Below are positions 10,785 through 42,047 of a stretch of DNA of 64,000 nt, piece by piece. The position numbers and the translations under genes were made by a program. The notes under the pieces are model-generated. The model was given only the letters and a program-made list of their open reading frames with translations, made no database searches and was not told where the DNA came from. This stretch comes from Burkholderia pyrrocinia (GTDB taxonomy: Bacteria > Pseudomonadota > Gammaproteobacteria > Burkholderiales > Burkholderiaceae). The stretch's first letter is position 1. Every line of letters begins with the position of its first letter. The stretch lies in the NCBI RefSeq assembly GCF_001028665.1, contig NZ_CP011503.1, positions 992,001-1,056,000 on the forward strand, in the 5' to 3' direction.

Positions 10785-11558
10785 ATGACTACTCCGCTGA
10801 AGGTCTTCATCACCGGCGCGTCGAGCGGCCTCGGCCTCGCGATGGCCGAGGAATACGCCCGCCAGGGCGCGACGCTCGCGCTCGTCGCGCGACGCACCGA
10901 CGCGCTCGATGCGTTCGCGCGGCGTTTCCCCAAGCTGTCCATCTCCGTCTATTCCGCCGACGTGCGCGACGCCGACGCGCTCGCGACGGCCGCCGCGTCG
11001 TTCATCGCGACGCACGGCTGCCCCGACGTCGTGATCGCGAACGCGGGCATCAGCCAGGGCGCCGTCACGGGCCAGGGCGATCTCGCGACGTTCCGCAACG
11101 TGATGGACATCAACTACTACGGGATGGTCGCGACGTTCGAGCCGTTCGTCGGCCCGATGACGGCCGCGCGCCACGGCACGCTGGTCGGCGTCGCGAGCGT
11201 CGCCGGCGTGCGCGGCCTGCCCGGCTCCGGCGCGTACAGCGCGTCGAAATCGGCCGCGATCAAGTATCTCGAATCGCTGCGTGTCGAGCTGCGCCCGGCC
11301 GGCGTCGGCGTCGTGACGATCGCACCCGGCTACATCCGCACGCCGATGACCGCGCACAACCCGTACCGGATGCCGTTCCTGATGGACGCCGACCGCTTCG
11401 CAGCACGCGCGGCGCGCGCGATTGCGCGGCAGCACGCGTTCCGCGTGATTCCGTGGCAGATGGGCGTCGTCGCGAAGGTGCTGCACGTGCTGCCGCGCTG
11501 GCTCTACGACTGCCTGTTCGAGAAGGCACCGCGCAAGCCGAAGACCGGCGCGCACTGA
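10785..11558 (+). CDS. Short-chain dehydrogenase/reductase (SDR)
   Basis: 257 residues with a classical SDR fold: cofactor motif TGASSGLG (about 9-16), the NAG motif (IANAGIS, about 85), catalytic Ser and YxxxK (SGAYSASKSAA, about 147-157). The substrate is not evident. The 19-base gap after dsbA suggests co-transcription. The C-terminus after about residue 220 is basic and hydrophobic (VLHVLPRWLYDCLFEKAPRKP), which could allow peripheral membrane contact. Confidence 0.9.
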   Translation: MTTPLKVFITGASSGLGLAMAEEYARQGATLALVARRTDALDAFARRFPKLSISVYSADVRDADALATAAASFIATHGCPDVVIANAGISQGAVTGQGDLATFRNVMDINYYGMVATFEPFVGPMTAARHGTLVGVASVAGVRGLPGSGAYSASKSAAIKYLESLRVELRPAGVGVVTIAPGYIRTPMTAHNPYRMPFLMDADRFAARAARAIARQHAFRVIPWQMGVVAKVLHVLPRWLYDCLFEKAPRKPKTGAH

Positions 11559-11988
11559 CGCACCGGCAGGCCGGCCCGCGCGACACGCGCCGGGCCGCAT
11601 CGCCCCATCGAAGCTTCGGTTTCGCGGCACTTCCCGCGGCGTCAGCGCCGCTCCCGCCGCGTTCCCTGACCGCCCCCCTCTCCGCCGCCCCTCTCCCGCC
11701 TCTCCCGCCTCTCCCGCCTCTCCCGCCTCTCCCGCCTCTCCCGCCTCTCCCGCCTCTCCCGCCTTTCCCGCCTTTCCCGCCGCCTCCGCAGCACTCTCCG
11801 CCGCATCAACACCCGTTCCGTCGCGAACGCAGCCGTTTTTCGGTCAATTCGCCGCGTTCCGGCGCCTTTTTTCACGCGTCGCACGCTTTGACGGTATGCT
11901 ATTCGCCAGCCGCGCCGGCCCCGCCCGCTTCCGGGCCGCGCCCGCATCCCGTCACCCAGCAAAAAACACAAGCCACGTGGGAGATCCT
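11559..11988. other. Gene-free stretch with a 9-bp tandem repeat
   Basis: 430 bases between the SDR and the peptide-binding protein. The middle holds the tandem repeat annotated separately. Open frames crossing it encode only Pro/Leu or Arg/Glu repeats and have no ribosome-binding site. The last 25 bases carry GTGGGAGA, the ribosome-binding site of the next gene. Confidence 0.6.
11692..11781. repeat. 9-bp tandem repeat (VNTR type), about 10 copies
   Basis: Eight perfect copies of TCTCCCGCC (11692-11763) followed by two copies of TTTCCCGCC (11764-11781). Diverged C/T-rich sequence extends a little upstream. Purine and pyrimidine are fully separated between strands. The tract lies outside any gene I support, about 210 bases before the start of the peptide-binding protein. 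Confidence 0.95.
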
Positions 11989-36097: not shown

Positions 36098-39000
36098 TTA
36101 CTTCGCGACGACGACCGGAATCCCCTTCAGCATCCCCGCGCCCTTCATCTCGTCGAGCGCGTGCTGCACGGCTGCGCTCGTCGCCGCGTCGATGCCGAGC
36201 TGCAGCGCGAGCTCGCGCTCCGCGCGCTTCACGCCGGCCAGGTTGCGCACCTTCACGTGACCGAAGCCGCGCACGCGGGCGTGCAGGTCGGCCAGTTGCG
36301 TGACCTGCGCCGCATTGCCGGCCGTCGTCGCGGCGAGCGCACGGGCGAGCGTCGTCTCGTAGTCGTCAGCCAGCGCGCGCTCCATCCTGCGCTCGACGGT
36401 GCGGCCGAACGGATCGAGCCACGTGCCGCGCAGGCTGCGCACGCGCGCCAGCATGCCGAACACCGGCCACATCCATTGACCGAACACGCGCTTCTTCGGC
36501 ACGCTGCCGTCGCGGCCGGCCTTCGCGACCGTCGGCGGCGCGAGGTTGAACTTCACGCGATACGCGTGACCCGGCACGCCTTCGAACTGCGCTTCGAGCG
36601 CCGTGCGGAATGCGTCGTCCGTGAAAAGCCGCGCGACCTCGTATTCGTCCTTCACCGCGAGCAGCCGGTAGAACGTCGTCGCGACCGCGCGCGTCAGCGC
36701 GTCGTCGCCCTTCGCGGCCGCCGCGTTCACCAGCGCACGGTAGCGCTCGACGTAGCGCGCGCCGCCATACGCGTCGAGACGCGCTTCGCGGTCGGCGATC
36801 AGTTCGGCAAGCGTTTCCGGCGCGGCGTGCGTGGCCACCGCGTGACGCGCGTTCCACAACGCATCGAGACCCGCCGCATCGCCGGCCGCCATCCGCCCGA
36901 TCGAGAACGCGAGCTTGTTCATCGGCACCGCGACGTTGTTCAGCTCGATCGCGCGCATCATCGCGGCGAGCGACACCGGCACGAGGCCGAGCTGCCACGC
37001 GTAACCGAGCATCAGGATGTTCGCGCCGATCGAATCACCGAGGAACTTCGCGGCGAGCGCCTGCGCGTCGCAGCTCGACAGGTAGCCGTCGCCGGCCGCG
37101 TGACGCATCTTTTCGAGCAGCGCGTCAGCATGCAGGTTCGCGTCGGGGTTCTGCACGAACGACGCGTTCGGGATCCGGTGCGTGTTGACGACGATCCGCG
37201 AACGTTCGTGACGCACCGTCTGCAGCGCTTCGGCGCTCGCGCCGACGACCATGTCGCACGCGAGCAGCACGTCGGCCTGCTGCGTGTCGATCCGCACCTG
37301 GTTCAGCCATCGGTCGTTCGCGGCGATCCGCACGAACGACAGCACCGAGCCGCCCTTCTGCGCGAAGCCCATGAAGTCGAGCACCGACGCGCTCTTGCCT
37401 TCGAGGTGCGCGGCCATGCTGATCAGTGCGCCGACCGTCACGACGCCCGTGCCGCCGACGCCCGTCACGAGCATGTCGAACGGCGCCGCGTCGAGATGCG
37501 TCGCCGGCACCGGCAGCGCGTCGACGCGCACGGCGAGCGCCGCTTCGTCGAACGCGGCGCCTGCGGCCTTTTTCAGCGCCGCGCCTTCGACCGTCACGAA
37601 GCTCGGGCAGAAGCCGTTCACGCACGAATAGTCCTTGTTGCACGACGACTGGTCGATGCGGCGCTTGCGGCCGAGCGGCGTCTCGAGCGGCTCGACCGAC
37701 AGGCAGTTCGACTGCACGCCGCAGTCGCCGCAGCCTTCGCACACCGCATCGTTGATGAACAGGCGCTTGTCCGGGTCGGGGAATTCGCCCTTCTTGCGGC
37801 GGCGGCGCTTCTCGGCCGCGCAGGTCTGGTCGTAGATCAGCACGGTGACGCCCGGCGTCTCGCGCAACTCGCGCTGCACCGCGTCGAGCTCGCTGCGGTG
37901 ATGGAACGTCGTGCCCTTCGGGAACAGCCCGTGATGGCCGTCGTACTTCTCCGGTTCGTCGGACACGACGACGAAGCGCGACACGCCTTCCGCCTCCACC
38001 TGCCGCGCGATCTGCGGCACCGAGATGCTGCCGTCGACCGGCTGGCCGCCCGTCATCGCGACCGCATCGTTGTAGAGGATCTTGTACGTGATGTTCGTTT
38101 TCGCGGCGACCGCCTGGCGGATCGCGAGGATGCCCGAGTGGAAGTAGGTGCCGTCGCCGAGGTTCTGGAACACGTGCTTCGTGTTCGTGAACATCGCGTG
38201 CGCGGCCCAGTCGACGCCCTCGCCGCCCATCTGGATCAGCCCCGTCGTGTCGCGCTCCATCCACGACGCCATGAAGTGGCAGCCGATGCCGGCCTGCGCG
38301 ATCGAGCCTTCCGGCACCTTCGTCGACGTGTTGTGCGGGCAGCCCGAGCAGAAGTACGGCGTGCGCTTCACCGCGTCGGCCTCGTTCGACAGGATCTGCG
38401 GCGCGACGAGATCGACGACGCGTTCGCGGCGGTCGAGCGCCGGCTTGTGCCGCGCGAGCCATTCGGCGAACACCGGCAGGATGCGCGACGGGCGCAGCTC
38501 GCCGAGCTCGGACAGCAGGCAGGCGCCGGCAGCGTCGTGCTTGCCGAGCACGCGCGGGCGCGCGCCTTCCGCGCGGTTGTACAGGTAGTCCTTGATCTGC
38601 TGCTCGATGACCGGGCCTTTCTCCTCGATCACGAGCACTTCGGCGAGCCCGTCGACGAAGGTCTCGATGCGCGTCATCTCGAGCGGATACGACAGGCCGA
38701 CCTTGTAGATCCGCACGCCGGCCGCGTCGAGGTCGGCCACCGTCAGGTCGAGACGGCGCAGCGCTTCCATCAGGTCGAGGTGCGCCTTGCCGCACGTGAC
38801 GATGCCGACGTTCGCCTGCGCGCTCGGCGCGATCCACTTGTCGATGCTGTTGGTGCGTGCGAAATGGCGCACCGCGTCGAGCTTCGCGGCGAGGCGCGCC
38901 TCGATCGTGAGGCTCGGCAGGTCGGGCCAGCGGTTGTGCAGCCCGCCCGCCGGCGGCGTGAAGCCGGCCGGCGCCGGCCACTGCGTCTGCAGCGCGTCGA

Positions 39001-39670
39001 GGTCGACGGTCGAACCCGACTCGACCGTTTCCGAGATCGCCTTGAAGCCGACCCACGCGCCCGAATAGCGCGACAGCGCCCAGCCGTACAGGCCGAATTC
39101 GAGCATGTCGGCGATGTTCGCCGGGTTCACGACCGGCATGTGCCACGCGATCATCGCGAAGTCGCTCTGGTGCGGCATCGACGACGACACGCAGCCATGG
39201 TCGTCGCCCGCGACGACGAGCACGCCGCCGTGCGGCGACGAACCGTATGCGTTGCCGTGCTTCAGCGCGTCGCCGGCGCGGTCGACGCCCGGGCCCTTGC
39301 CGTACCACATCGCATACACGCCCTCGACCGTGCGCTCGGGATCGGCCTCGACGCGCTGCGTGCCGAGCACGGCCGTGCCGCCGAGCTCCTCGTTGATCGC
39401 GGGCAGGAAGCGCACGCCGCTGCCGTCGAGCAGTTTCTTCGCCTTCCACAGCTGCTGGTCGACCATGCCGAGCGGCGAGCCGCGGTAGCCGCTGACGAAA
39501 CCGGCGGTGTTGAGCCCCAGTTCAGTGTCGACCGTGCGCTGCATCAGCATCAGGCGGACCAGCGCTTGCGTGCCGGTCAGGAAGATCCGGCCGCGCGTCG
39601 CGGTCAGGTTGTCGGTCAGGCGGTAGTCGGACAGGGCAGGCGTGCCGTCGATGGGCAAGCGGGCGGTCAT
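36098..39670 (-). CDS. Indolepyruvate ferredoxin oxidoreductase (fused alpha/beta form)
   Basis: 1190 residues. The domains are those of 2-oxoacid:ferredoxin oxidoreductases: an N-terminal pyrimidine-binding region (GFVSGYRGSPLGMVD, about 58-72), a TPP-binding region (FCSGCPHNTSTKVPEG and GGEGVDWA), an iron-sulfur part with CEGCGDCGVQSNC and SCNKDYSCVNGFC, and the gamma domain (GVGGTGVVTVGALI). It oxidatively decarboxylates aryl pyruvates such as indolepyruvate to acyl-CoA, with ferredoxin as acceptor. The fused single-chain form is common in beta-proteobacteria. The gene stands alone; its start faces the repeat array. Confidence 0.93.
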   Translation of the reverse strand: MTARLPIDGTPALSDYRLTDNLTATRGRIFLTGTQALVRLMLMQRTVDTELGLNTAGFVSGYRGSPLGMVDQQLWKAKKLLDGSGVRFLPAINEELGGTAVLGTQRVEADPERTVEGVYAMWYGKGPGVDRAGDALKHGNAYGSSPHGGVLVVAGDDHGCVSSSMPHQSDFAMIAWHMPVVNPANIADMLEFGLYGWALSRYSGAWVGFKAISETVESGSTVDLDALQTQWPAPAGFTPPAGGLHNRWPDLPSLTIEARLAAKLDAVRHFARTNSIDKWIAPSAQANVGIVTCGKAHLDLMEALRRLDLTVADLDAAGVRIYKVGLSYPLEMTRIETFVDGLAEVLVIEEKGPVIEQQIKDYLYNRAEGARPRVLGKHDAAGACLLSELGELRPSRILPVFAEWLARHKPALDRRERVVDLVAPQILSNEADAVKRTPYFCSGCPHNTSTKVPEGSIAQAGIGCHFMASWMERDTTGLIQMGGEGVDWAAHAMFTNTKHVFQNLGDGTYFHSGILAIRQAVAAKTNITYKILYNDAVAMTGGQPVDGSISVPQIARQVEAEGVSRFVVVSDEPEKYDGHHGLFPKGTTFHHRSELDAVQRELRETPGVTVLIYDQTCAAEKRRRRKKGEFPDPDKRLFINDAVCEGCGDCGVQSNCLSVEPLETPLGRKRRIDQSSCNKDYSCVNGFCPSFVTVEGAALKKAAGAAFDEAALAVRVDALPVPATHLDAAPFDMLVTGVGGTGVVTVGALISMAAHLEGKSASVLDFMGFAQKGGSVLSFVRIAANDRWLNQVRIDTQQADVLLACDMVVGASAEALQTVRHERSRIVVNTHRIPNASFVQNPDANLHADALLEKMRHAAGDGYLSSCDAQALAAKFLGDSIGANILMLGYAWQLGLVPVSLAAMMRAIELNNVAVPMNKLAFSIGRMAAGDAAGLDALWNARHAVATHAAPETLAELIADREARLDAYGGARYVERYRALVNAAAAKGDDALTRAVATTFYRLLAVKDEYEVARLFTDDAFRTALEAQFEGVPGHAYRVKFNLAPPTVAKAGRDGSVPKKRVFGQWMWPVFGMLARVRSLRGTWLDPFGRTVERRMERALADDYETTLARALAATTAGNAAQVTQLADLHARVRGFGHVKVRNLAGVKRAERELALQLGIDAATSAAVQHALDEMKGAGMLKGIPVVVAK

Positions 39671-40005
39671 GGGGGATGTCTCCTGATTGTGCTGTTCTGG
39701 GCTGCGCGGCGGGGCGTCGGGCGACGTGTGGGCACCGGCAGCGAATGGCTCTATTTTTTCGCGCGCAGGCGAGAATGTTTTTTCTCATCTTGCTCGGACG
39801 GGCCCGCAGCGAGAAAAACTGCGCAGCTTTTTACCGGGATTTGAGAGAGTTTTCGCGCGCGGTGGTGGAGCGGGTTGGGCGGGGTGTCTGGACGGTCGGG
39901 TGGTTTGCCGGAACAACCGGTGCGGGTCCGCGAGCAACCGGCCGATCCGGCGGCAGGCGCTCGCGCCCCGTGTGACAAGGGTTTCGGCGGCTGGAGGCGG
40001 TCACG
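39671..40005. other. Non-coding flank between the oxidoreductase gene and the repeat array
   Basis: 335 bases upstream of the large oxidoreductase gene, which must hold its promoter. GC skew and G-rich stretches are noticeable, but no gene, operator or further repeat unit was recognised. Confidence 0.5.
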
Positions 40006-41360
40006 CTCACCATTGGAATGCACAGCGTTTCGAGTGGCGTCGGGGCCGGGATGTCCACATCCGTAATCGGTATCCGGTTTCATCGGGCACCGACGCTCAC
40101 CGTTGAAATTCACAGCGTGGCGAGTAGGTTTCGGCGGTGGATATCCACATCGGGATCGGCTGATTTCGTCGATCCGCGATTCACCCTCACCGATCGAATA
40201 CACAGGATCGCGAGTGGGTTCGCCGGCCGGATATTCACACCCGAACACGCACGCTACGCAATCGCAGGTCCGCACTCACCGTTGAAATGCACAGGACTTC
40301 GAGTGGCTGCAGCGGTAGTTGTCCACCGCCCGAACCGGCTCTGCCGTCCGGTCTCGAGCGCACCCTCACCGTTGAAAACTGCAGCGCTTCGAGTGGCCGC
40401 AGCGGCAGTTGTCCACGCTCGGGCCGGCTCCGCCGTCCGGCCACGCACGCACCCTCACCGTCGAAAACCACAGCGCTTCGAGTCGCTTGGCGAGACGGAT
40501 ATCCACATGAGTGCGAATCCGTTGATCGGCCATGAAAGTGCGTTTCCGAGGACCGCGACGGCCGGGAGTCCACGCCGGGATCGGCGCGCCGTCCGATCGG
40601 GTGTCGACTCTCACCTTCGAAATACACAGTGCCGCGAGTCGTCTCGTCAGCCGGATATCCACACCGGAAACCGCGTTGCCTTCGATCGCGTGCTCTCACA
40701 CGAGCCTGAAATGTACAGCGCTTCAGACGACGTTGTCGGCCGAACGGCCGCGTCTTGACCGGCTGCCCGCCGAGAGCGCACACACGCTCACCATCGAATT
40801 ACGCAGCGCGTCGAGTCGCTCGAGAAGGTTGGAACGCGCAATGAAATCAGCTCGTTGCGGACCACACAGCCCCGCTCACCGTTAGAATGCACGGCCCTTC
40901 GATTGGCTTCCGGGGCCGGAATCCACATCGCCACGCACTCGCGGTTCGGTCACGCATGCGTGCGTTCGGCTAGAATGCGCGGCGCTCCGAATCGCACCAA
41001 AGGTCGGGAAGCCGCGCCGGCGCAGGCGCGTCGCGCGATCGGACGCCGGCACTCACCGCTGAATTTCACAGCATTTCGCGTCGTTCCGCGGATCGGTTAT
41101 CCACAACCCTCTTCATGCATTGCGCGGCATCCGGTCATCCTCACCGGTGAATTGCACAGGGCGCCGAGTCGTTTCGATGCGTGGATATCCACAACGGATC
41201 GTGCGAAGAAACGTTCGTCGGCACATCGGCGGAAGCGATCTGCGCATCAACGCGCAGCATTCGGGCGATAACCGGAAAGCCTTGTCCGGACAGCCTCGGC
41301 GGCACCCTCACCATTCAAATGCACAGCGTTTCGAGTCGCCTTCGCGGTGGGTTGTCCACA
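40006..41360. repeat. Array of about 16 diverged repeat units, 88-90 bp period
   Basis: Each intact unit has a 5' box (consensus CTCACCGTTGAAATGCACAG, then GCGTTTCGAGT), about 12 variable bases, and a 3' box GGATATCCACA; the whole core is 53-54 bp and is followed by about 36 bases of variable spacer. Cores start at 40006, 40096, 40186, 40275, 40365, 40454, 40610, 40695 (decayed), 40787 (3' box lost), 40875, 41052, 41140 and 41307; decayed units lie near 40525 and 40964, and one may be lost near 41229. Twelve units keep CTCACC exactly. No spacer is shared. There are no cas genes and no clear stems. Frameshifting differences (53 or 54 bp cores; steps of 85-92) argue against a coding role. Confidence 0.9.
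41097..41105. promoter_or_regulatory. Perfect DnaA-box match inside the repeat array
   Basis: TTATCCACA equals the E. coli R1-type DnaA box. The equivalent position in other units reads ATATCCACA (40141, 40499, 40655, 41185), ATGTCCACA, TTGTCCACA or weaker, so the 3' box may be a degenerate DnaA-binding site. Binding is not shown. Confidence 0.4.
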
Positions 41361-41407
41361 TCCGCCCCAATGCGCTGACTCAAGCCGACACGCGCTTCCG
41401 GGCAACC

Positions 41408-41965
41408 TCACTCGGCAATCGAACGGATGACCGTTGCCGGATTGCCGCCGACCAGCGTATTCGGCGGAACGTCTTTGGTGACGACGGCCCCGGCCGCGAC
41501 GACCGAATTCTCGCCGACCGTCACGCCGCCGATGATCGTCGCGCCGGCGCCGATCCACACGTTCCGTTCGATCGTGATCGACTTCGCGACAACGAAATCG
41601 CGCCGCCGGGAAGGTTCCACCGGATGGCCGGACGTGATGAGGCTGACGTTCGGCCCGATCATCACGTCGTCGCCGATCTCGAGCCCGCCCAGGTCGTAGA
41701 ACGTACAGTTCTGGTTGACGAACACGTTGCGCCCGATCTTCATGCCGGCACCGCCCGTCGCATGGAACGGCGGAATCAGCACGAAGCCGTCGTCCACCTG
41801 CGTGCCGATCAGTTCGCTGAACAATACGCGAACGTCTGCCTCGTCGTCGAACGTCAGGCGATTGAGCCGCGCGGTGATCGCCATCGCTCGCTTGACCTCG
41901 GCCACCATGGCCGCCGATTCCGGCGTTCTTCGCGGAATGATCGTGGTGCGATCGTCGTTTGCCAT
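41408..41965 (-). CDS. Maltose/galactoside O-acetyltransferase-like protein
   Basis: 185 residues. A mac-type helical N-terminus (ITARLNRLTFDDEADVRVLFSELIG) is followed by left-handed beta-helix hexapeptide repeats (IGRNVFVNQNCTFYDLGGLEIGDDVMIGPNVSLITSGHP...IGAGATIIGGVTVGENSVVAAGAVV), with the catalytic His in TSGHPVEP. It acetylates sugars from acetyl-CoA; this family includes Maa, NodL and LacA. A further in-frame ATG at 41986 exists, but 41965 gives the usual N-terminus and has GGAGAC upstream. It is divergent from a GST gene across a striking palindrome. Confidence 0.9.
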   Translation of the reverse strand: MANDDRTTIIPRRTPESAAMVAEVKRAMAITARLNRLTFDDEADVRVLFSELIGTQVDDGFVLIPPFHATGGAGMKIGRNVFVNQNCTFYDLGGLEIGDDVMIGPNVSLITSGHPVEPSRRRDFVVAKSITIERNVWIGAGATIIGGVTVGENSVVAAGAVVTKDVPPNTLVGGNPATVIRSIAE

Positions 41966-42047
41966 TCGTTGCTTGTCTCCGTGCACGGTCGAACCGGCGG
42001 TGCATCGCAGTCATGCTGATCTGCACCGAGATTCTTGATTCAAATTT

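Follow-up and report, generated by a model that had tools for sequence, protein, structure and literature searches.

What is a non-coding array of diverged but regularly stepped units doing between an oxidoreductase gene and an acetyltransferase gene on chromosome 1 of Burkholderia pyrrocinia? The array lies within the window, the whole 64-kb stretch of DNA analysed here (G000:C1:992001-1056000), in a home genome of 7.96 Mb in four contigs. When the array is set beside other sequences of the genus, the likeness that emerges is to replication origins. Judged by these sequence comparisons, there is about one chance in two that it belongs to the conserved DNA-binding arrays of replication control. 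The first-pass annotation of this DNA missed the link to replication origins because other sequences are needed to see it.

The array consists of 12 clear units, all on the forward strand, between positions 40006 and 41364 of the window, with decayed units besides. Scored against a profile of the unit (R1), the clear units occupy 40006-40064 (57.9 bits), 40096-40154 (56.4 bits), 40186-40244 (50.8 bits), 40275-40332 (51.1 bits), 40365-40421 (46.6 bits), 40454-40509 (56.7 bits), 40610-40668 (54.6 bits), 40787-40843 (39.6 bits), 40875-40930 (47.7 bits), 41052-41108 (51 bits), 41140-41198 (54.2 bits) and 41307-41364 (56.6 bits), and each begins with CTCACC at its first position. Unit 1 displays the layout of a CTCACC box, CACAG, TTTCGAGT and a second box, termed box 2. 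By alignment, box 2 is nearer by one base in units 4 and 5; it is decayed in unit 8, and in unit 10 it contains an exact DnaA box, TTATCCACA. Start-to-start steps along the array are 90, 90, 89, 90, 89, 156, 177, 88, 177, 88 and 167 bp. The decayed units, likewise on the forward strand, sit inside the long steps: a remnant of box 2 at 40556-40579 within the 156-bp step (6.7 bits, weak), a remnant of box 1 at 40707-40724 (8.6 bits, weak) and a further decayed unit at 40971-41020 (16.6 bits). The first-pass annotation had described about 16 units at steps of 90, 90, 89, 90 and 89 bp, then mostly 85-92 bp. The array is real and its opening steps are as described, but the good units number 12 and not 16, those at 40556, 40707 and 40971 being weak and partial, and the later step range holds only if decayed units are counted.

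The array does not fill the whole intergenic gap, as had been claimed: the first unit is separated from the start of the oxidoreductase gene (39670) by 335 bp of non-array DNA (39671-40005), and the gap is about as long in 45 of the 48 related loci that have the gene. This gene (36098-39670, reverse strand) encodes an indolepyruvate ferredoxin oxidoreductase-like protein, a name that is our reading of its Pfam domains POR, TPP_enzyme_C and DUF6537. On the other side of the array lies a hexapeptide acetyltransferase gene (41408-41986, reverse strand; Pfam Hexapep), with synteny in 39 of 52 related loci. A pattern built on the 20-base box CTCACCNNTGAAATGCACAG, allowing up to three mismatches, matches 10 times in the 64 kb, always within the array, against a mean of 0.02 and a maximum of one in 100 shuffled sequences; the array is therefore not a product of chance.

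Pooled over all loci, 737 units were collected, of which 724 are distinct over 60 bases (723 over the stretch used for counting words and box 2); nhmmer matches with E > 0.05 were excluded from these counts. The unit profile reads A C N CTCACC GTTGAAAT N CACAG CG TTTCGAGT N G N TTTCGG, followed by a free stretch and by box 2, which after register correction is GG[AT]T[AG]TCCACA, and the spacers carry little information. CTCACC is present in 653 and CACAG in 646 of the 723 distinct units, the full 7-mer TGCACAG in 237 and CTCACCT in 77. Box 2 could be scored in 652 of them, starting at unit position 44 in 481 and at position 43 in 153, so that the fixed core length reported for this one array extends to 634 of 652 units. 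Its commonest form, ATATCCACA (303/652), departs from the canonical DnaA box at position 1; TTATCCACA accounts for 36. At least one TTWTNCACA occurs in 26 of the 52 main arrays and none in the other 26.

Constraint on the unit is evident from 555 orthologous unit pairs, drawn from the 18 of 52 arrays with the standard layout and from array pairs of at least 75% identity. Positions 2-6 of CTCACC differ in 0.2-2.4% of these pairs and position 1 in 6.8%; CACAG differs in 0.6-11.6% and the CGA of TTTCGAGT in 3-8%. The range is 5-18% for box 2 (positions 45-54) and 8-24% for the mildly constrained GTTGAAAT part, whereas at 30 of the 35 positions in spacers and inner stretches it is 20-34%. Recognising the units by their boxes inflates the contrast between boxes and spacers, although for CTCACC it is still tenfold or more. 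Because the words hardly change while the spacers differ this much, the CTCACC and CACAG words are under selection. Selection on the boxes had been suspected from the window, and relatives do conserve the words better than the spacers.

Neighbouring units on the same strand are 87-91 bp apart in 351 of 585 cases, and the remaining steps, which contain decayed units, cluster near 156, 167 and 178 bp. Across the main arrays the steps form an 11-bp ladder (approximately 67, 78, 89, 156, 167, 178 and 190 bp), for which the decayed units account in part. Helical phasing was rejected as its cause, the long steps containing decayed units and being shared by descent. A coding repeat was also rejected, since steps of 89, 90, 156 and 177 bp shift the reading frame and some arrays have units on both strands. 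Units occur in both orientations in 17 of the 52 main arrays, usually as one inverted central block (e.g., L058, L059, L068 and L089). On a tree of the neighbouring gene, which covers 48 of 52 array loci and all 13 array-less ones at up to 390 bp each and places two array-less loci weakly inside the array clade, 11 of the 16 mixed arrays placed fall in one clade. The other five are scattered, so more than one inversion event is possible.

The array is restricted to a single genus, in which the profile matches an array in 52 of 65 genomes. Of 150 genomes sampled across the family, 13 have a match, and these belong to this one genus out of 25; of 399 across the order, under strict filters, 2 do, in one genus of 158. 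A pattern scan of the named GTDB collection returned 12 stretches. Each of them is from Burkholderia, and the species include B. dolosa, B. cepacia, B. ubonensis, B. seminalis, B. puraquae and B. catarinensis. We infer that the genomes compared here are the B. cepacia complex and its near kin. In the 13 array-less genomes of the genus, a permissive profile search gave weak matches alone (best E 0.0088). Searches of plasmids, phages and IMG/VR gave no array match, and an origin of the array there was rejected. A description of the array was not found among the titles and starts of abstracts listed by literature searches. Main arrays hold 9-20 units in 51 of 52 genomes and 4 units in one. Around them the oxidoreductase gene adjoins 48 of 52, a GST gene is present in 49 of 52 loci and the acetyltransferase gene in 39 of 52. 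In three loci without the oxidoreductase gene (L100, L103 and L104) a contig end truncates the locus. One 12-unit array, L066 (G010:C2:3471500-3478500), has a 2.3-kb flank without that gene, unlike the other loci.

The array does not resemble the common classes of bacterial repeat. Its units are diverged and its spacers can be aligned between species, unlike those of a CRISPR, and the five flanking genes scanned carry Pfam domains other than cas. Unlike the dispersed REP/BIME elements, units at E < 0.01 occur in the home genome at two loci only, the main array and a second locus. The first-pass annotation is thus borne out where it set the array apart from CRISPR, REP and VNTR repeats, and the scattered repeat family that it named as a refutation was not seen. 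Nothing in Rfam comes near its gathering score (best 20 versus 36.5 bits). Single sites elsewhere were discounted: among 12 weak-match stretches, five are one orthologous coding sequence, taken for a coincidence. The weak-match stretches L182 and L184 lie near the second locus.

In the home genome, this second locus (G000:C1:1334824-1336690) comprises five units, split three and two by an ORF of 387 aa (L009 5232-6395) that has no Pfam match and for which no relative was found in nine other second-locus stretches. Orthologues of the locus were identified in nine further genomes, making 10 of the 52 array genomes examined in all, and in each of these 10 loci the genes flanking the second array are the same, catalase-like and ECF sigma factor. 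Approximately 15-18 kb from the second array of the home genome, two ParB-like genes stand beside a large serine recombinase gene (L172 6105-9519), in a region that is perhaps an integrated element.

Near the second array is a conserved non-coding block, seen in a comparison of eight genomes. It lies at about G000:C1 1,337,389-1,337,719 (L009 7390-7720; L111 5225-5560). Its distance from the second array is 0.7-2.6 kb in the home genome and falls within 0.4-6.5 kb among the ten loci. Boxes of the forms TTATCCACA, TTATCCAGA and TTATCCACT occur in the block, together with a TTAACTATCACTACG stretch that adjoins AT-rich DNA. In the home genome the block is upstream of a tRNA-Val(gac) gene; across the relatives, this gene comes after the block in six genomes where it was found and also in L202 and L204, but not within locus L206 of G012. 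The DnaA-trio is a concept in use for replication origins, and we read the block as a putative oriC-like module that contains repeats resembling the DnaA-trio; it may be a second origin or a relict one. Within the module, in inverted orientation, CACAG is followed after 23-25 bases by TTATCCACA, which is the spacing found in the array units.

The module and the array co-occur closely. Module matches at E 9.6e-34 or better are present in all 52 array genomes and in none of the 13 array-less ones, of which seven have no module match and six a weak one (best E 1.5e-13, over most of the module, in G040); two genomes of another genus have short matches. Since weak matches occur in six array-less genomes, module and array need not have arisen together. 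Their co-occurrence may reflect few events in one clade. The distance between them is nearly constant: the main array is 250-321 kb from the module in 21 of the 23 genomes with both on one contig, the exceptions being G009 (544 kb) and G058 (888 kb). Twelve of these distances cross the record end, a closed circle being assumed.

The words of the unit also recur at the apparent origin of chromosome 1. A likely oriC1 is located at L222 4745-5020 (G000:C1:1,384,745-1,385,020), where DnaA boxes, the trio-like TTAACTTCTACTACG and AT-rich DNA are found together. The GC-skew minimum of the 400 kb sampled is at 1,387,178, about 2 kb from this cluster of DnaA boxes and trios (1,384,749-1,385,020). The likely oriC1 is about 111 kb from dnaA and not beside it, and 47 kb from the module. 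Seven identical-scoring copies of a DnaA-like AAA gene are spread over C1, C2 and C3 of the home genome; they are probably the helper gene of an IS21-type element. The 400 kb around the origin contain eight sites of the form CACAG-N23-26-[ACT]T[AGT]TCCAC[AG], where a Markov model predicts 0.2: five are units of the second locus, and the module, oriC1 and the priA region have one each. Outside the array, 3 of 26 such boxes have CACAG at the unit spacing, where 0.27 are expected from other distances. Two exact TTATCCACA boxes stand in front of and inside priA (a gene named by reading) at L224 ~10990-11750 (G000:C1:1,430,996 and 1,431,730), and one of them has CACAG at the unit spacing.

A comparison of oriC1 between genomes used the 12 of 21 candidate stretches with a trio motif, seven of them in array genomes and five in array-less ones, the 9 without it being left out. 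CACAG-N21-28-box is present at one place in six of the seven array genomes and at another place in the origin in three of the five array-less ones. The architecture therefore belongs to the origins of the genus and not to array genomes alone. CACAG by itself is frequent at oriC1 whether or not the genome has an array (5-14 per 390 bp).

For chromosome 2, the comparison rests on the Burkholderia cenocepacia origins as described by Du et al. 2016 (PMC4948915). There, the chromosome-2 (c2) iteron is given as ctCCCGAAAAacCTCACCTtt, the 7-mer CTGTGCA (reverse complement TGCACAG) is clustered in all three origins, and the exact c1 origin is called unclear. In our home genome, origin 2 holds 20 iteron-like sites at up to three mismatches, 10 of them exact. 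The chromosome-2 rep was located beside parB, the search for a replication initiator by Pfam RPA (PF10134) having been dropped when that domain proved absent. The motif that the chromosome-1 units share with the chromosome-2 iteron is its CTCACC half alone; CCCGAAAA is missing upstream of CTCACC in the unit consensus, which thus lacks the full iteron CCCGAAAANNCTCACCT, and most units are also without the T that comes after CTCACC in the iteron.

The origin-2 comparison used 6 of 20 record starts, those with the chromosome-2 rep, together with the home origin (seven in all, the other 14 being left out), a small sample of four array and three array-less genomes. In the stretches of about 20 kb that hold rep, CTCACC-N3-13-CACAG occurs 5, 4, 4 and 3 times in the four array genomes and not at all in the three array-less ones, which hold as many iterons. 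Most of these sites are within the iteron cluster and three are 3-10 kb from rep, including CTCACCGTTGAGCACAG of L294; the home ori3 stretch has one such site. In the ~2.9 kb upstream of rep, CACAG is found 29, 24, 30 and 21 times in the four array genomes and 9, 7 and 16 times in the three array-less ones; the stretches compared are L173, L286, L289 and L294 for the former and L280, L282 and L284 for the latter. One further array genome stretch, L296 (G032), has seven iteron-like sites at the record start and neither CTCACC-CACAG nor rep. The unit profile as a whole has no significant match in the origin-2 stretches. When the unit consensus is shuffled, the iteron hexamer arises in 14.5% of cases, the 7-mer in 0.67% and an 8-of-9 match to the DnaA box in 0.66%; all three arise jointly in 0 of 40,000 shuffles, for a three-word match that was noticed after the words had been met in the paper by Du et al.

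These likenesses suggest, with roughly an even chance of being right, that the array serves as an extra-origin docking array on chromosome 1 for replication initiators, namely DnaA and/or the chromosome-2 RepA. Each unit of ~54 bp joins three origin words: CTCACC as half of the chromosome-2 iteron, CACAG as the core of the origin-clustered 7-mer and, at a fixed distance, the DnaA-box-like [AT]T[AG]TCCACA. The units would be copied early because they are near the origin, and they would bind DnaA and/or the initiator RepA. The array may thereby lower the amount of free initiator (titration) or alter the initiator, and it would help set the start of chromosome 1 and/or chromosome 2. The sequences show the array, its conservation and confinement to one genus, its distance to the module and co-occurrence with the module's strong form, and the shared words; the binding protein and an effect on the timing of initiation we infer. 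The docking reading is weakened by box 2, which is usually a non-canonical DnaA box, and by the iteron, of which half alone is common to both. It also offers no explanation for TTTCGAGT, a word that to our knowledge matches no origin word. It is conceivable as well, though on balance unlikely, that the array is an inter-chromosome coupling element binding both DnaA and RepA, whose replication would license or time the initiation of chromosome 2. An array of this kind could be an independently evolved counterpart of the Vibrio crtS, linked to the second oriC-like module, which we likewise regard as rather doubtful.

A serious alternative is that a DNA-binding protein of the origin region other than the initiators recognises the array. 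In such a centromere-like or nucleoid-organising array, a clade-specific protein would bind the whole 54-bp unit at 89-bp steps and position or fold the origin-proximal region, a reading less probable than docking. It is consistent with a large, non-palindromic site of fixed internal distance, with the regular 87-91-bp steps and origin-proximal place, with the inversions tolerated in 17 of 52 arrays, and with TTTCGAGT, which has no known origin counterpart. However, it leaves the recurrence of CACAG, CTCACC and a DnaA-like box at oriC1, the module and origin 2 unexplained, and the flank genes examined include no obvious array-binding protein except the ECF sigma factor beside the second array. 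Plasmid centromeres of the sopC type are also regularly stepped tandem arrays of roughly a dozen protein sites, with a unit of ~43 bp, whereas the array unit is ~89 bp, is not palindromic and, in the window, has no partition genes adjoining the array. The mixed arrays could also point to sites of a site-specific recombinase or to an invertible switch; yet there is no recombinase among the flank genes examined and the inverted blocks share one layout, which leaves this reading hardly any probability. Very improbable, too, is a decaying satellite without present function, kept similar by unequal exchange. It would accommodate the near-identical blocks of a few arrays (G022, with equal scores at 177-bp steps), the decayed units in long steps and a copy number of 4-20, but homogenisation would hit the spacers too, and orthologous spacers differ by 20-34% while CTCACC hardly differs (a contrast inflated by box-based recognition). 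The presence of the array in 52 of 65 genomes also argues against a satellite.

The neighbouring oxidoreductase gene raises the question of a local regulatory region. The gene adjoins nearly all main arrays, and its start is 336-354 bp from the first unit in 45 of the 48 related arrays that have it. Against this, the gene is lacking from the 2.3-kb flank of L066 in G010 (three more loci being cut by a contig end), and the second array stands beside unrelated genes. Moreover, in 11 of the 13 array-less relatives a gap of 276-470 bp separates the oxidoreductase gene from the closest neighbour that was recognised, which encodes a GST, an ion channel or a transport protein; the gap is 2.4 and 2.9 kb in the other two, and no unit scored better than E 1.9 at any of the 13 loci. 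The constant distance may therefore just be an old intergenic region, and local regulation is very improbable. The constant short words could belong to a tandem small RNA or an RNA sponge, but the folding energies argue otherwise. Minimum free energies match those of shuffled sequences, with mean z of -0.16 on one strand and +0.11 on the other (60 units for each), and no long-range covarying pairs were found in the units. Strong column correlations lie inside box 2, where they reflect the 1-bp register shift and were rejected as an RNA signal, or between neighbouring bases, and candidate hairpins inside box 1 (GAAA/TTTC and AGCG/CGCT) were rejected, their pairing being equal to column expectation. 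Between 39500 and 41600, no promoter match was found and there is one terminator-like site, against 2.1 in shuffles. Together with the inverted units inside some arrays and the lack of any Rfam family near its gathering score, these results make an RNA product highly improbable. Protein binding on the DNA or an RNA product had been offered side by side at the outset; of the two, binding is favoured.

Several known systems resemble the initiator-docking array proposed here. The datA and DARS loci of E. coli, as well as clusters of DnaA boxes in B. subtilis and Streptomyces, are likewise non-coding and outside the origin, and share a conserved distance from the origin, conserved sites and freer spacers (PMC4585315, PMC12371093). 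The main array has a comparable place: in 21 of the 23 genomes with both on one contig, it is 250-321 kb away from the oriC-like module. Unlike those clusters, it consists of regularly stepped composite units, 9-20 in most arrays, with a mostly non-canonical box 2, two extra conserved words and an occurrence in one Burkholderia group, and its DnaA sites are putative. The crtS site of Vibrio cholerae is described in PMC6090056, which also covers RctB titration sites, as a chromosome-1 site with a motif related to the chromosome-2 initiator sites. It is a single short site that has GATC sites and one putative DnaA box, whereas here units of 54 bp, with half of a RepA iteron, form two arrays. With the c2 iterons of Burkholderia cenocepacia, as given in PMC4948915, the array shares the CTCACC half of CCCGAAAANNCTCACCT, which is the most invariant part of the unit; in contrast to those iterons, the units are without CCCGAAAA, belong to chromosome 1 and have three further elements, CACAG, TTTCGAGT and box 2. 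By analogy, the array appears nearest in kind to the DnaA-box clusters and datA, and in its chromosome-2 flavour nearest to crtS, a likeness that leaves class membership unassigned.

The coordination of replicons in multi-chromosome bacteria is known in detail mainly for Vibrio. In Burkholderia, the second oriC-like module bears on the remark of Du et al. about the c1 origin, and the array is a concrete, deletable candidate for keeping the replicons in step.
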